Part shown: positions 7,781-33,189 of the stretch, in pieces
Layout: each line of letters starts with the position of its first letter
Position numbering within the stretch: the stretch's first letter is position 1
DNA from: Lachnospiraceae bacterium
Lineage (GTDB): Bacteria > Bacillota > Clostridia > Lachnospirales > Lachnospiraceae
Reading direction: 5' to 3'
Length of the DNA stretch: 36,450 bases
Assembly (NCBI GenBank): GCA_030540075.1
Contig: JAUNWX010000021.1
Span: 1 to 36,450 of the forward strand
Position numbers and translations under genes: made by a program
Notes under the pieces: generated by a model
What the model was told of the DNA's origin: nothing
Database searches by the model: none
Seen by the model: the letters and a program-made list of their open reading frames with translations, nothing else

Positions 7781-7868
7781 TATGGGGTCTGACCCCATAA
7801 ACTTTAACTTTAGATTTTATTTATAAAAATTTAATGGGGTCAGACCCCATTACGAAATTCTTAAGATG
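7781..7868. repeat. REP-like repeat, copy 2, with an extra palindrome
   Basis: Two palindromes, TATGGGGTCTGACCCCATA (7781-7799) and AATGGGGTCAGACCCCATT (7833-7851), flank an AT-rich 33-bp stretch. Together they form an inverted pair. The second palindrome with its tail up to 7868 is the 33-bp exact repeat of 6278-6310. The region is the spacer between the unknown gene at 7881 and coaE. Confidence 0.75.
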
Positions 7869-11746: not shown

Positions 11747-11964
11747 CCCGGAGGACAGCCACCGGAAGCCATACGGAGAGGACGTGAAAAAGCAAAATTG
11801 TCCCCCTTAGAACCAGTTGGAGAATTTTTCCTTAGCACTCTCTGCAACACTGAGTTTTCCTCAAGAAAACTCAGTCGTTTGCAGAGAGCCTACTGGTTCT
11901 TAGGGGGACAATTTTAGATTCTTCCGTCCTCGCAGTACTGTGCTTCCGGTGGCTGCCCTCCGGG
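11747..11964 (-). repeat. Large palindromic element, copy A (3' of upp)
   Basis: A 218-bp imperfect palindrome folding into one long hairpin. From the ends inward: outer stem CCCGGAGG.../...CCTCCGGG extended by about 17 bp; internal loop CATACGGAG opposite CGCAGTACTGT; short stem AGGACG/CGTCCT; a second loop; a 24-bp stem AAAATTGTCCCC.../...GGGGACAATTTT; a one-sided bulge of about 20 nt ending TTTTTCCTTAGCA; stem CTCTCTGCAA; and a 10-bp tip CTGAGTTTTC with 5-nt loop CTCAA. It begins 20 bp after the upp stop. The tRNA-to-upp interval holds this element and otherwise nothing I can identify. Compared with copies B and C the stems differ but stay paired. Strand is assigned by its position after minus-strand genes. 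Confidence 0.85.
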
Positions 11965-11984: not shown

Positions 11985-12629
11985 TTACTTCGTACCGAAG
12001 ATACGGTCGCCGGCATCGCCCAGACCCGGGCAGATGTATGCGTTCTCGTTCAGGCAGCGGTCGAGGTTTCCGACGTAGATCTGTACATCCGGGTGTGCCT
12101 CGGCGAGACGCTTCACGCCCTCCGGTGCCGCGATGATGCAGATGAACTTGATCTTCTTGCCGCCGTGCTTCTTGATCTGGTCGATGGCGTCGACAGCGGA
12201 GCCACCGGTCGCCAGCATTGGATCACAGACGACGATCTGACGCTCCTCGATCGGGTTCGGCAGCTTGCAGAAGTACTCGACCGGCTGATGCGTGGTCTCG
12301 TCACGATACATGCCGATGTGACCGATCTTTGCGCTCGGAACGAGTGCGGTCAGGCCGGATACCATGCCGAGGCCGGCACGAAGGATCGGCACGATGGCGA
12401 GCTTACGGCCAGCCAGCATCTCGACCTCAGCGGTCTCGATCGGGGTTTCGAGCTCGACGGTCTTCGTCGGCAGATCGGACAGCGCCTCGAAGCCCATCAG
12501 CATCGCGATCTCCTCGACGAGCTGACGGAACTCGTTGGTTCCGGTGTGCTTATCACGCAGAAGGGAAATCTTGTGCGTAAGCAGCGGGTGGTGCATGATG
12601 TGTACATTTGCTCCGAAATTATTTTCCAT
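11985..12629 (-). CDS. upp: Uracil phosphoribosyltransferase
   Basis: A 214-residue enzyme making UMP from uracil and PRPP (pyrimidine salvage, cytoplasm). The PRPP site [16 protein letters not shown] and the C-terminal uracil-binding [13 protein letters not shown] are intact, and the length is standard. The ATG at 12629 follows AAGGAG by 6 nt; an in-frame ATG 30 nt upstream lacks a site. It follows the hexapeptide-repeat gene by 48 bp and ends 20 bp before palindromic copy A. Confidence 0.96.
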
Positions 12630-12677
12630 GATAAACTCCTTTGATATGTGTTCCGGCATCCGCCGGTAGATAACGAA

Positions 12678-25825: not shown

Positions 25826-25909
25826 CTGAATTTGAGTAAAAAAGCCGATTCAATTTTAATTATTGCAACGCTTCCGGCAGAAAAGCCATAACAGTGTGGC
25901 TGTGTTGGG

Positions 25910-26128
25910 GACCCGGAGGGGCAGCAACGGAGGTCATACGTAGAGACCGTGTGAAATCAAGCCGGGTCCCCTTAGCGGCACTTGGTACTATTTTCCTTAG
26001 CACCCTCTGCAACGTCGAGTTTTCATAAAGAAAACTCGACGATTGCAGAGGGCCTAGTGCCGCTTAGGGTCCCCGGCTTAGATTGAACCGGTCTCGGAGT
26101 ACTGTACCTCCGTTGCTGCCCCTCCGGG
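25910..26128 (-). repeat. Large palindromic element, copy B (3' of galT)
   Basis: A 219-bp palindrome of the same architecture as copy A: outer stem of 24 bp (ACCCGGAGGGGCAGC... with its complement), loop CATACGTAGA opposite TCGGAGTACTGT, stem GACCG/CGGTC, loop TGTGAAATC opposite AGATTGAA, stem AAGCCGGG...CCCCGGCTT, 20-nt one-sided bulge, stem CCCTCTGCAA/TTGCAGAGGG, and a tip GAGTTTTC-ATAAA-GAAAACTC. It begins 19 bp after the galT stop and shares runs of 61 and 42 identical bases with copy C. The remainder of the galT-hflK spacer holds a small AGCCA/TGGCT hairpin (25884-25901) and the hflK promoter. Confidence 0.88.
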
Positions 26129-26147
26129 TTTCAACCTGACTGTTGAT

Positions 26148-27740
26148 TTAAATCGACTTTACGAAGCGATCGAACGCGGCCTGGCCTTCGGCGGTGCGCT
26201 TGTAGACGCCGGCGTCCTCGAGCACCTGCATGAAGACGATACCGATCTCATCGCGGAGAATCCCCTCGAGGTTCTCCTCCGTGAGCTGCACGCCCTGCGC
26301 CGCATACTTCGCGCGGAACTCGTCAACCCAGTCCGCATGCTTCGCGAGCGCCTCATCCGCACGAAGATCCTTTCCAGCGAGAATCGCCTCGCGGAGGTCT
26401 GCCATCTCGCCCTTCAGACGGCTTGGCAGCACCGCGAGACCCATGACCTCGATGAGGCCGATGTTCTCCTTCTTGATATGATGCAGCTTTGCATGCGGAT
26501 GGAAGACACCAAGCGGATGCTCCTCCGTCGTGATGTTGTTCCGGAGCACGAGATCAAGCTGGAACTGCTCGCCCACCTTGCGTGCGATCGGCGTGATCGT
26601 CGAGTGCGGCGTGCCCTCGGTCTCTGCGAAGATAAACGCGCTCTCATCCGTGTAGCCTCTCCACTTCGTGAGGATACGATCCGCAAGCTCCGCGAGCCGT
26701 GCCGTATCCGGACCGCTCAGACGGATGACGCTCATCGGCCACTTCACGATGCCCGCCTCGACATCCTCGAAGCCCGGAACCGTAAACGTCCGCTCCACCG
26801 GTGCCTTCGCCATCGCGAAGGTATAGTGACCACCCTGGAAGTGCTCATGTGCAAGGATCGAGCCACCCACGATCGGAAGGTCAGCATTGGACCCGACAAA
26901 ATAGTGCGGGAACTGCGCGACGAAATCAAACAGCTTCCGGAACGCCGCCTTATCGATCTTCATCGGCGTGTGCGCCGCATTCAGCACGATGCAGTGCTCG
27001 TTGTAGTACACGTACGGCGAATACTGGAAGCCCCACTCCGCGCCCTGGATCTCGATCGGAATGATACGATGATTCTCACGCGCCGGATAGTCCACACGAC
27101 CACTGTAGCCCTCGCACTCATGACAGAGCTGGCACTTCGGATAGCCCGTCTGCTTCGCCTTGCCCGCCGCCGCGATCGCCTTCGGATCCTTCTCCGGCTT
27201 CGACAGATTGATCGTGATGTCAAGGTCGCCGTACTCCGTGTGCGTCTGCCACTTCACATCCTTCTTCACACGATAGCGACGGATGTAGTCCGTATCCCGC
27301 GAGAACGTGTAGTACCAGTCGGTCGCCTCCTTCGGACTCTCCTCATAGAGACTCGCAAACCGTGCCTGCACCTCGGAAGGACGCGGCGTCAATGCACCCA
27401 TCAGACTCGTATCGAACAGATCACGATAAACCACCGAATCACCACCCGTGAGACCGTGCTCCACCGCATAATCATCCAGCGCAGCCAGCACATTCTCCAG
27501 GTACGTACCATCCGACACCATGCCCAGCGCATTCACCTTCTGATCCTCGCTCGCCTCCGTCTCATCGAAGGCAATGCTCCCGGCCTCCGCGATCACATCC
27601 TCCCGCGTCGCCGTCACCTCCGTGATGCCCAGCTCCAGCGTCACCGTATTCAACGCCCAGATGATATCCGCCTCCTCGATCAGCCCCGTCTTCAGCGCAT
27701 ACGCCACCAGATCCTTTACAGCCACCTGTACATCCATCAT
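26148..27740 (-). CDS. galT: UDP-glucose--hexose-1-phosphate uridylyltransferase, class II
   Basis: A 530-residue class II GalT (Firmicutes type), exchanging UMP between UDP-glucose and galactose-1-phosphate in the Leloir pathway. Active-site signatures ILAHEHFQGG and GVFHPHAKLHHIKKENIG are present. A CxxC pair lies in PKCQLCHECEGYSGR. The length is slightly above the usual 490-510. Two adjacent ATGs follow GGGAGA; the first is used. It is separated from galE by 287 bp containing palindromic copy C and followed by copy B, so it lies between two near-identical direct repeats. It has no obvious promoter of its own. Confidence 0.95.
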   Translation of the reverse strand: MMDVQVAVKDLVAYALKTGLIEEADIIWALNTVTLELGITEVTATREDVIAEAGSIAFDETEASEDQKVNALGMVSDGTYLENVLAALDDYAVEHGLTGGDSVVYRDLFDTSLMGALTPRPSEVQARFASLYEESPKEATDWYYTFSRDTDYIRRYRVKKDVKWQTHTEYGDLDITINLSKPEKDPKAIAAAGKAKQTGYPKCQLCHECEGYSGRVDYPARENHRIIPIEIQGAEWGFQYSPYVYYNEHCIVLNAAHTPMKIDKAAFRKLFDFVAQFPHYFVGSNADLPIVGGSILAHEHFQGGHYTFAMAKAPVERTFTVPGFEDVEAGIVKWPMSVIRLSGPDTARLAELADRILTKWRGYTDESAFIFAETEGTPHSTITPIARKVGEQFQLDLVLRNNITTEEHPLGVFHPHAKLHHIKKENIGLIEVMGLAVLPSRLKGEMADLREAILAGKDLRADEALAKHADWVDEFRAKYAAQGVQLTEENLEGILRDEIGIVFMQVLEDAGVYKRTAEGQAAFDRFVKSI

Positions 27741-27797
27741 TCCATCTCCCTCATGTAAAACATTTCATAACGTAAATAGAAACAGTTCAATCAAGGT

Positions 27798-28014
27798 CCC
27801 GGAGGACCGACAACAGAAACCATACGGAGAGGCCGTGTAAAATCAAGCCGGGTCCCCTTAGCGGCACTTGGTACTATTTTCCTTAGCACCCTCTGCAACG
27901 CTGAGTTTTCATAAAGAAAACTCAGTGATTGCAGAGGGCCTAGTGCCGCTTAGGGTCCCCGGCTTAGAGTTTACCGGCCTCGGAGTACTGTGTTTCTGTT
28001 GACGGCCCTCCGGG
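27798..28014 (-). repeat. Large palindromic element, copy C (3' of galE)
   Basis: A 217-bp palindrome with the same layout as copies A and B. The outer stem CCCGGAGGACCGACAACAGAAAC pattern (23 bases per arm, last six AGAAAC pairing with GTTTCT) differs from both others yet pairs with its own right arm. The short stem is AGGCCG/CGGCCT, and the inner stem and tip nearly match copy B. It begins 13 bp after the galE stop, within the galKET transcription unit. Confidence 0.88.
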
Positions 28015-28027
28015 CCATTGCATTAAA

Positions 28028-29044
28028 TCAGGAATTATATCCGTTCGGATTCTTCTGCTGCCAGTTCCAGGAATCGCGGCACATATCCTCAAGATCATAC
28101 TCCGCAGTCCAGCCGAGCTCCTTCTCTGCCTTCGCAGGGCTCGAGTAGCAGGTCGCGATGTCGCCCGGACGACGCTCCCGAATCACATACGGAAGCTCCT
28201 TGCCGCAGGCCTTCTCGAACGCATGAATGACATCCAGTACCGAGTAGCCGTGGCCGGTGCCGAGATTGCAGATGAACACACCATCCTTCTTCGCGAAACG
28301 CTCGATGGCCTTCACATGACCACGTGCGAGGTCCACGACATGGATGTAATCACGCACGCCCGTGCCATCCGGTGTATCATAATCGTTACCGAAAACATTG
28401 ATCTCCGGCAGCTTGCCGATCGCTACCTGTGCCACGTATGGAAGCAGGTTGTTCGGGATACCCTTCGGATCCTCGCCGATGAGACCGGACTTGTGCGCAC
28501 CGATCGGATTGAAGTAACGAAGCAGGATGACATTCCACTCCGGATCCGCGGTATGAATATCCGTCAGAATCTGCTCCTGCATCCACTTGGTCCAGCCATA
28601 CGGATTCGTGCAGGTACCCTTCGGGCAGTTCTCCGTGATCGGAATCTCCGCCGGATCGCCGTACACGGTCGCCGAGCTCGAGAAAATGATGTTCTTGCAG
28701 CCATGCGCACGCATCTCGTCCGTGAGGTTCAGCGTGGAACCGATGTTCGTGCGATAGTATTCAATTGGCTTATGCACAGACTCACCGACCGCCTTCAGAC
28801 CTGCGAAGTGAATGACCGCATCGATCTTATTCTCATCGAACACACGCTTCACCGCTGCACGATCCATCATATCATCCGGATAGAACTTCACCTTCTTCCC
28901 GGTGATCTCCTCGATCCGGTCTACCGCCTTCTGATTCGAGTTATACAGGTTATCGATGATGACCACATCATAGCCCGCGTTCAGAAGCTCCACACATGTA
29001 TGGCTTCCGATATATCCAGCACCACCTGTTACAAGAATAGTCAT
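28028..29044 (-). CDS. galE: UDP-glucose 4-epimerase
   Basis: A 338-residue extended short-chain dehydrogenase converting UDP-galactose to UDP-glucose. NAD-binding GGAGYIGSHTCVELL is at the N-terminus, the catalytic Ser in FSSSATVYGDP and the YxxxK as YGWTK. NPIGAHKSGLIGEDPKGIPN and the C-terminal DIATCYSSPAKAEKELGW are typical. Full length. The ATG at 29044 has a GAGGAAA site and lies 20 bp after galK, so the two are co-transcribed. Confidence 0.96.
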   Translation of the reverse strand: MTILVTGGAGYIGSHTCVELLNAGYDVVIIDNLYNSNQKAVDRIEEITGKKVKFYPDDMMDRAAVKRVFDENKIDAVIHFAGLKAVGESVHKPIEYYRTNIGSTLNLTDEMRAHGCKNIIFSSSATVYGDPAEIPITENCPKGTCTNPYGWTKWMQEQILTDIHTADPEWNVILLRYFNPIGAHKSGLIGEDPKGIPNNLLPYVAQVAIGKLPEINVFGNDYDTPDGTGVRDYIHVVDLARGHVKAIERFAKKDGVFICNLGTGHGYSVLDVIHAFEKACGKELPYVIRERRPGDIATCYSSPAKAEKELGWTAEYDLEDMCRDSWNWQQKNPNGYNS

Positions 29045-30410: not shown

Positions 30411-30455
30411 CGCGAAAAACCTCTCATTCATCTGAGAATTTCTTACATTTGTAAC

Positions 30456-30549
30456 CGTTCAGGCATGGGACCCGGAAGGCCGGCAACGGAGGCCATACGC
30501 AGAGACCCTGTGAAATCAAGCCGGGTTCCCTCGCCGGTCTGAACAGTTG
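30456..30549 (-). repeat. Half copy D of the large palindromic element (3' of thrE)
   Basis: From 30471 to about 30530 the sequence matches the left arm of copy B: CCCGGAAGGCCGGCAACGG, CATACGCAGAGACC and TGTGAAATCAAGCCGGG. It then breaks off before the inner stem; the tip and right arm are missing. It is bordered by GTTCAG and CTGAAC, the same borders as the hairpin at 668-712. The right border lies a few bases after the thrE stop. The remainder of 30244-30553 is the galK leader and promoter. Confidence 0.75.
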
Positions 30550-30553
30550 ACGT

Positions 30554-32039: not shown

Positions 32040-32792
32040 TTAACTGTGCAGGATTTTCGTGACCGTCGCGAGATTCCGGTCGAAATTCTTTTTCAGCAGA
32101 TGCTTATGAAGGAACACGCCGAGCTCATCATAGCCGCGCTCTCCTTCCTTCACGACATCCTGACCATAGTAGACGGTTGCCGTCGGCAGCTCCCTCTGAA
32201 GCTTCAGTACGATGTCGAGCACCGCCGCATAAGCCTGCGCTTCCGTTTCCTGCTGCTTCACCGTATCCGGCAGATCATAGATGAGCAGCACGCCATAGTG
32301 GTCGAAGGACTTCATCTCGACGACATCCATGGTGTTTTCGTCATAGGCGTGGTTCAGCCGGCAACCATGCGCGAGGTACATCTTACAGTCCTCCATGTGA
32401 CGGAACTCACGATGGAAACGTTCGTAATCTGCCTCCGGCACTTCGACGTCGAGATCTTTACGGAGGTTTCCGTCATCATCCGTCAGGATGATCGGATTCT
32501 CCTTGCCATCCTCGTTAAAGCGGAACGGTGCCAGATAGGAATTCCGCAGCAGATCAAACATACTGTTCTGCGTCAGCGCCATCAGCAGTGCCGACAGATC
32601 CCGGTTCGTGTAGGCATCAAACAGCGCCTTTGCAAACTCCTGCGGCTTCAGATAGCCACCCACCATCGTCTGATCCGGATCGATGGCACCGTAAAAGGTC
32701 TCAGACAGCCGCGCACAGGCATCCTCATCCTCCAGAATCTTCTTAAACAAAAGCTCTGACTTATCTTCTCTCGGAAAAATCGTAGACATCAT
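32040..32792 (-). CDS. Protein of unknown function with duplicated start region
   Basis: A 250-residue soluble acidic protein I cannot place. It has a predicted mixed alpha/beta content, no membrane segment and a basic C-terminus (HKHLLKKNFDRNLATVTKIL). The stretch VEMKSFDHYGVLLIYDLPDT in the second half loosely recalls nuclease-like folds of transposon-derived proteins, but I do not rely on it. The ATG at 32792 (or the next at 32789) follows GAGAGG. Its first 55 bp, including the ribosome site, are tandemly repeated just upstream. It lies upstream of thrE without a clear terminator. Confidence 0.7.
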   Translation of the reverse strand: MMSTIFPREDKSELLFKKILEDEDACARLSETFYGAIDPDQTMVGGYLKPQEFAKALFDAYTNRDLSALLMALTQNSMFDLLRNSYLAPFRFNEDGKENPIILTDDDGNLRKDLDVEVPEADYERFHREFRHMEDCKMYLAHGCRLNHAYDENTMDVVEMKSFDHYGVLLIYDLPDTVKQQETEAQAYAAVLDIVLKLQRELPTATVYYGQDVVKEGERGYDELGVFLHKHLLKKNFDRNLATVTKILHS

Positions 32793-32857
32793 AAACACCT
32801 CTCAAAAGCTCTGACTTATCTTCTTTTGGAAAGATCATAGACAGCATAAACGCCTCT
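32748..32857 (-). repeat. 55-bp tandem duplication over a gene start
   Basis: Bases 32748-32802 and 32803-32857 are about 89% identical. The second unit carries its own GAGAGG site and ATG and encodes MLSMIFPKEDKSELL, nearly the real N-terminus. Because 55 is not a multiple of three, that frame then runs out of phase and stops at 32761 (28 codons), overlapping the true start. Confidence 0.85.
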
Positions 32858-32987: not shown

Positions 32988-33121
32988 CATCATGCCTACG
33001 GAAATGACTCAAATTCCAGTTGAACCGTAGGCATGATGTCCCCGATTTATGGACATCATGCCTATAAAATCGATTGAAAAAGCAGGCATGATGTGCATTT
33101 TCCGGTCACATCATGCCTACG
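32988..33121. repeat. Array of five alternating CATCATGCC motifs
   Basis: CATCATGCCTACG or a close variant occurs at 32988, 33054 and 33109 on the plus strand and at 33026 and 33081 in reverse. Neighbouring copies can pair in more than one way: 33031-33042 with 33052-33063 (12 bp) and 33085-33095 with 33107-33117 (11 bp) are exact. It lies between the AEC terminator and the promoter at 32900. Otherwise the 424-bp spacer 32793-33216 holds only the duplication, that promoter and the terminator. Confidence 0.75.
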
Positions 33122-33126
33122 ATGCA

Positions 33127-33189
33127 GAAAAGCCCCGGCGGGCCGGTCCCGGAAGTACTATTCTTCCGAGATCAGCCCACCGGGGCTTT
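33127..33189 (-). terminator. Terminator after the AEC transporter gene
   Basis: A long stem AAAGCCCCGG...CCGGGGCTTTT with GGGC/GCCC and an inner CGGAAG/CTTCCG hairpin, ending in TTTTC on the minus strand, about 30 nt after the stop. Confidence 0.85.

Follow-up and report, generated by a model that had tools for sequence, protein, structure and literature searches.

The window, by which we mean the whole analyzed stretch of 36,450 nucleotides from a Lachnospiraceae bacterium, carries three full copies of one long hairpin architecture (copies A, B, and C), each lying 13 to 20 bp past the stop of an open reading frame (ORF) on the minus strand. By eye, the three ORFs look like upp, galT, and galE. 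All three hairpins are present as set out in a preliminary description of this DNA, and copy B folds far below shuffled sequences, with -165.7 kcal/mol on the plus strand (shuffled mean, -79.2; z = -18.6) and -166.1 kcal/mol on the minus strand (z = -17.7 against shuffles). The window also holds a fourth, half-deleted copy, D. No duplication was seen flanking the probable extent of copy B or, as a target-site duplication, at copy D, and a scan of copy A at up to 2 mismatches did not find the terminal repeat.

Table 1. Hairpin copies and their parts in the window (R1, covariance model of the inner 148 positions)
Feature	Position	Strand	Remarks
Copy A, second subfamily	11747..11964	+	20 bp past stop of - strand ORF 11985-12659
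Copy A, R1 core	11781-11928		151.9 bits
Copy B, probable original extent	25888..26147	.	extent and decayed repeats (ATAACAGTGTGG ... CCTGACTGTTGAT) identified by eye
Copy B, giant hairpin	25910..26128	+	orientation named by TTTTCCTTAGC bulge in left arm; 19 bp past stop of - strand ORF 26148-27740
Copy B, left outer arm	25911..25934	+	24/24 complementary to 26106-26129
Copy B, conserved unpaired CATACG	25935..25940	+	
Copy B, R1 core	25946-26092		169.3 bits
Copy B, two conserved T.T mismatch positions	25973..25983	+	25973 and 25983; first in CTTAG motif
Copy B, conserved one-sided bulge TTTTCCTTAGCA	25991..26002	+	
Copy B, conserved AGTACTGT	26098..26105	+	faces CATACG
Copy B, right outer arm	26106..26129	+	pairs with 25911-25934
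Copy C, left terminal-repeat remnant GAAACAGTTCAA	27779..27790	+	2 mismatches
Copy C, giant hairpin	27798..28014	+	between - strand ORFs 26148-27740 and 28028-29044; 13 bp past stop of 28028-29044
Copy C, R1 core	27832-27978		170.8 bits
Copy D, 101-bp deletion derivative	30451..30551	+	repeats GTAACCGTTCAG ... CTGAACAGTTGAC; left hairpin half only

Other repeats lie elsewhere in the window. A pair of ATGGGGTC(T/A)GACCCCAT palindromes (7782-7850) resembles the REP motifs known from RAYT transposases; among 85 host loci checked, some of them overlapping, 5 contain the inner motif. Inverted AGGCATGATGT/ACATCATGCCT repeats (32990-33126), which resemble CATGCCTAC repeats within two longer host elements described below (L264 and L265), are followed by a GC-rich hairpin (33129-33189). 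Two tandem 55-bp copies, 89% alike, lie at 32748-32857, at the 5' end of minus-strand ORF 32040-32798, and duplicate its start region.

Copy number, spread, and covariation

The preliminary description treated the family as three copies; the host genome contains at least 50, with copy D as a fourth in the window. When the host genome was searched by DNA, 40 of 108 candidates were scored, and every one of these 40 places had an E value below 1e-34. R1 matches 50 separate loci in the host; the match covers the complete model at 49 of them, and a contig end cuts the remaining one. Among 60 relatives, a DNA search located the family in 7 of 16 congeners (Oribacterium) and in 0 of 44 more distant relatives; the assignment of the host to this genus rests on kinship. 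The covariance-model search that had been proposed as a check, run with stricter filters, matched 2 of 299 Lachnospiraceae genomes, namely the host and one with a marginal 46-nt match; the only congener drawn apart from the host gave no match. A scan of named genomes for the core pattern found it in five stretches, belonging to Oribacterium sp. WCC10, KHPX15, and NK2B42 and to MAG RUI013; viral contigs gave 0 matches. The element is short, multi-copy, and non-coding, with an ORF of at least 90 codons spanning it in 2 of 129 copies according to a simple ORF caller.

Several variants were observed. Ten loci (L144 to L146 and L158 to L164) carry a long hairpin variant with an ~80-nt structured insert in the apical stem, and some orthologous sites hold the short form in one species and the long form in another. 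A copy in genome G016 (L047) has an apical-stem insert with changed but still paired stems. At L143 and L179, a complete element is nested in an older one at CTTAG motifs, with GTAG on both sides (by eye).

The preliminary description held that the stems vary and covary and that the loops are fixed, and both observations stand. In an alignment of 45 copies (30 host and 15 congener; the rearranged L047 was left out), 97.8% of cells in the inner ~150 nt pair and 29 of 40 pairs show double-sided changes. None of 500 shuffles reaches any of five covariation measures, and sliding the partner by one base lowers pairing to 43 to 58%. The outer arms, which lie beyond the model, also covary, though not at every position. 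This was scored in 43 host copies with both anchors, out of 49 complete ones (the 6 without anchors were left out, and the 49 exclude L106, which is cut by a contig end). One outer-arm pair is AT in 20 copies, CG in 10, TA in 5, and GC in 3, so that 38 of 43 are paired against a shuffled mean of 14.4; another is barely over the shuffle (27 of 43 versus 24.8), with 12 A.C. Copies from congeners share the architecture and differ in arm sequence. Two T.T mismatches 10 positions apart are nearly invariant: in the host they are retained in 48/49 and 46/48 observations, and in congeners in 63/70 and 55/64. The pairing of the hairpin arms is thus maintained.

Terminal repeats and target-site duplications

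The best-preserved host copies carry an inverted repeat, GTAACAGTTCAG, outside the hairpin, placing the true ends ~20 to 30 bp further out than first described. At up to 3 mismatches, GTAACAGTTCAG is found on both sides of 14 of 129 copies (49 host and 80 congener), compared with 0 to 1 of 129 for five shuffled repeats, and copies that retain both ends measure 253 to 283 bp. In the seven host copies with both repeats, the adjacent 8-mers match at 8, 8, 8, 7, 6, 6, and 1 of 8 positions; 76% of random 8-mer pairs match at 1 to 3 positions, and none of 2000 draws exceeds 5. Further, host copy L010 has GTTTACTT on both sides (by eye), and an indel in its repeat places it outside the count. The earlier argument that varying termini speak against a simple MITE is not supported, since the termini lie outside the ends on which it was based and, in the host copies that are best preserved, show a conserved inverted repeat with 8-bp duplications.

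The seven congener copies with both repeats show no duplication (1 to 5 of 8 matching). At site L133 of genome G013, the orthologous position is occupied in G004 by another palindrome, of ~100 bp and with decayed repeats, and in G016 by a long-variant hairpin; the interior has therefore been exchanged or the site re-used. Such events could explain the missing congener duplications, which is short of proof. At six cross-species locus pairs (L003/L141, L003/L163, L097/L182, L103/L129, L120/L175, and L126/L161), both flanks match and the element is reversed, therefore reflecting re-insertion or inversion. Attempts to find empty sites at two positions yielded no clean one, all being filled, rearranged, not alignable, or one-sided. 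Shortened copies also carry duplications: L276 (102 bp, right half only) has an exact 8-bp duplication (8/8), and L275 (101 bp, outer arms only) has one of 7/8. Because these derivatives are core-less, the core is probably dispensable for movement, unless the deletions came after insertion.

The end sequence is not confined to the hairpin. At up to 1 mismatch, the host has 32 occurrences of GTAACAGTTCAGCC, and G004, G011, G013, and G016 have 104, 60, 58, and 11; its backwards control occurs 0 to 2 times per genome. The exact 14-bp end is present in 79 of 387 Lachnospiraceae genomes and 70 of 334 genera sampled, with up to 154 occurrences per genome and 1 match for its backwards control across the 387 genomes, which points to a transposition system. 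Paired repeats enclose elements ranging from 47 bp to about 1.2 kb, the majority of which lack a long ORF. The pairs examined in other genera mostly surround other elements with matching duplications: 20 loci yielded 17 close pairs, of which 13 have duplications of at least 7/8 and four match at 2 to 5 positions, and in a second set of 30 loci, 11 hold a pair with a duplication of at least 7/8, both sets having been selected because repeats were listed at them. In genome G400, giant hairpins of 288 to 324 bp, with a core unrelated by eye, are bounded by the same end; in each of four such copies, the ~60-bp outer arms have their own sequence and still pair, repeating around this end what is seen in the Oribacterium hairpins. 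Rfam had 0 matches at six loci with other elements bounded by the repeat. Searches of open-licence full text gave no paper with the 14-bp end sequence and none on palindromic transposable elements of Oribacterium or palindromic intergenic repeats in Lachnospiraceae.

Seven host loci (L189, L204, L253, L260, L264, L265, and L269) hold elements of ~770 to 1230 bp bounded by the same repeat, some with short internal repeats (GCCATTA or CATGCCTAC) and one, L260, with an exact 8-bp duplication; by eye, none of the seven has a transposase-like ORF. In congeners, L190, L217, L218, and L219 contain repeat-bounded tandem units of ~80 bp (TCATCCTGAATGGCAGGTTA-type) that differ in number, and L220 is a tandem element built on another unit. 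AbiEii toxin-antitoxin-like gene pairs, in which Pfam AbiEii adjoins DUF6088 or DUF6577, lie between the same terminal repeats at L273 (repeats at 348 and 2621, a wider pair enclosing the genes, with no duplication seen) or beside one at L274 (repeat at 1648). In other genera, a repeat-bounded type of ~135 to 165 bp with several hairpins and changing stems (L290, L317, L318, L319, L320, L321, L309, L322, and L323) occurs, by eye, in more than one genus (genomes G019, G270, and G323).

Three transposase families were considered as mobilizers. GTAA ends suggested IS66, whose transposases occur in 4 of 5 genomes; no GTAACAGTTCAG pair surrounds them in the 10 loci examined, some of which are cut by contig ends. 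ISL3 gave five matches in 2 of 8 genomes, and a repeat scan at up to 1 mismatch found nothing at these loci; IS1595 was present in 0 of 8 genomes. ORFs beside or inside lone repeats include none that is transposase-like by eye. Among IS66, ISL3, IS1595, and the ORFs at lone repeats, no transposase with the repeat of the element was found. The preliminary description named two findings that would refute its reading: a lack of significant covariation among genomic copies, or target-site duplications around copies that lie beside a matching transposase. Covariation far above chance in shuffles was found; the duplications are present at host copies, and no matching transposase was found beside them.

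Mismatches, changes between orthologs, and gene context

In a functional RNA, G.U mismatches are much more readily accepted than A.C ones. In the arms of the 129 copies, we counted 84 G.U and 83 A.C mismatches, omitting positions mismatched in at least 20% of copies, as also in the counts by part and by gene sense below, and, for this pooled figure, mismatches without two matched neighbors on each side. As a control, 15 distinct tRNAs from fetched loci gave 32 G.U versus 4 A.C. The totals for the hairpin copies split into 21 versus 46 in the host and 63 versus 37 in congeners. Outer arms have 49 G.U versus 66 A.C (host, 10 versus 39, p = 4e-5; congeners, 39 versus 27), and in the core taken by itself G.U is modestly in excess (35 versus 17 A.C; p = 0.018). 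When copies in the two codirectional classes only are read in the sense of the upstream gene, the counts are 47 and 48. Host and congeners are skewed in opposite directions, and this skew does not track gene orientation.

Changes between species were followed in 14 orthologous copy pairs, which contain 112 complementary doubles (67 transversions and 45 transitions), 43 other doubles, and 151 singles; many of these double changes are whole-module replacements. The five closest, single-lineage-like pairs (L142/L177, L143/L179, L149/L170, L155/L173, and L165/L180) contain 7 complementary doubles (4 transitions and 3 transversions), 3 other doubles, and 23 singles, where by our estimate independent changes are expected to yield less than 1 double. 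Because transitions and transversions number 4 and 3 here, the transversion excess stems from replaced modules, and the 23 singles mean that arm mismatches do persist. The mapped arm pairs of L149 and L170 are identical except at one T-A/A-T pair.

Copies lie close to gene 3' ends, at a median distance of -3 bp in the host (n = 51) and +6 bp in congeners (n = 98) with a simple ORF caller; median distances to 5' ends are 69 bp (n = 42) and 95.5 bp (n = 62). Divergent sites account for 8 of 46 in the host, where some calls rest on short ORFs, and for 3 of 80 in congeners. At codirectional sites, the hairpin occurs in both orientations (45 versus 36), and orthologous sites are occupied in several species. 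Around copies B and C there is one promoter-like site and one terminator-like site, the latter at the right edge of B, in each case no more than in shuffles. Rfam has no match in the window except a tRNA; at two long-variant loci, a relaxed threshold gave one match (E = 0.31), located outside the element.

The structured RNA put forward as possible by the preliminary description is therefore not borne out overall, given the lack of a G.U excess, the two orientations, and the lack of an Rfam match; the counts in the core (35 versus 17) leave room for an RNA role there. The covariation is genuine but carries no RNA signature over the whole hairpin, the core being less clear.

A proposed DNA-level explanation and its relation to known systems

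We consider copies A to D to be probably a non-autonomous DNA transposon that is moved in trans and whose arms are held complementary at the DNA level (probability about 0.6). Identification as a putative MITE is well supported by the terminal repeats, the duplications at host copies, the copy number, and the derivatives. The element would consist of the terminal inverted repeat GTAACAGTTCAG(CC), variable outer arms, and a core of ~150 nt with fixed internal loops, and would be moved by a presumed transposase making 8-bp duplications, the repeat and duplications being those observed in host copies. Copies lie mostly at gene 3' ends, where a long hairpin may be tolerated. Intrastrand template switching, in a hairpin that is extruded or forms on the lagging strand, would transfer a change from one arm to the other, and other copies would overwrite elements in whole or in part. 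We infer this arm-to-arm templated correction and conversion between copies from the symmetric mismatch types, the matched double changes including transversions, and the replacements at the same site. The fixed loops would have to be held by some sequence-specific function, perhaps, as speculation, protein contact with the extruded hairpin; arm correction alone gives no account of them. Against the DNA-level explanation, both repeats survive in only 14 of 129 copies, duplications are missing from the seven congener copies among these and from copy D, no transposase with this repeat was found in the families and ORFs covered, and mismatches persist between the closest orthologs; symmetric correction also predicts neither the A.C excess in host outer arms nor the G.U excess in the core. 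We regard as rather doubtful the broader proposal of a Lachnospiraceae-wide class of DNA elements with only the 14-bp end in common, which would use a folded DNA hairpin for movement or rebuilding, one arm templating the other in each round. If true, ends and loops in such a templated-arm class would stay fixed and arm bases would drift in matched pairs, giving covariation without RNA function.

Two alternatives involve a folded single strand. A transcript that acts as RNA, with mobility secondary and covariation reflecting RNA-level selection, would fit the strong covariation, the fixed loops, the stable predicted fold, and the G.U excess in the core. We judge it unlikely, as G.U equals A.C overall and in the upstream-gene sense, unlike in tRNAs, both orientations to genes occur, Rfam has no match to the element, terminal repeats and duplications are present, and promoter-like sites around B and C do not exceed shuffles. 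Equally improbable, in our view, is that folded single-stranded DNA is itself the mobile substrate, attC-like or HUH-like, with a recombinase recognizing the hairpin and its unpaired bases. The pooled mismatch types, which are symmetric between strands, are consistent with this, as are the conserved unpaired bases, the T.T mismatches 10 positions apart, and the structured interiors in other genera within the same bounding repeat. Against it, 8-bp duplications next to terminal repeats are typically a mark of double-strand DDE transposition, and core-less derivatives bear them too.

Two further readings tie the hairpin to transcript ends. Selection might retain it as a bidirectional terminator or mRNA end, as suggested by its proximity to gene 3' ends in host and congeners, the scarcity of divergent sites in congeners, and the occupation of orthologous sites in several species. 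Avoidance of promoters and genes explains this position equally, the sole terminator-like site around B and C is not above shuffles, and the fixed loops are left without explanation, making such retention a weak contender. That the outer stems are host terminators, each different because a smaller element inserted in its loop, is very improbable: a few outer stems seem unrelated to the rest (L088, L099, and L100, by eye), but most outer arms in host and congeners share a consensus (by eye), and the surviving terminal repeats lie outside them.

Covariation is usually read as a sign of functional RNA. Here, a mobile DNA element strongly passes the covariation test and, taken as a whole hairpin, fails those of wobble and orientation. 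This makes it a concrete possible class of false positives in RNA discovery, and it offers a natural setting in which to measure how the arms of palindromes copy one another.

Integron attC sites keep structure over sequence and conserve unpaired bases. The Oribacterium element is like them in both respects but occurs as dispersed copies with terminal repeats and duplications. QMITE2 of Coxiella has terminal repeats, 7- to 9-bp direct repeats, and a stable predicted hairpin, as described in PMC10969869, where its core is 113 to 145 bp and its repeats are 23 to 29 bp; that paper does not mention covariation. YPAL/RU-2 of Yersinia, a 168-bp palindromic mobile element, is likewise described as short, non-coding, stem-loop forming, mobile, and not A+T-rich, with target duplications (PMC2229807). 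In that description, YPAL has no terminal repeats, its inverted repeats being internal, and duplications of 3 to 26 bp (PMC2229807), whereas the Oribacterium element, with its terminal repeat of 12 to 14 bp and 8-bp duplications, falls outside the YPAL type. ERIC/IRU, NEMIS/Correia, and RUP resemble the Oribacterium element in being MITE-like, with terminal repeats and transcripts said to form long stem-loops; in the same account their termini are 5'TA3' (PMC2229807), whereas the Oribacterium element has GTAACAG ends and 8-bp duplications.
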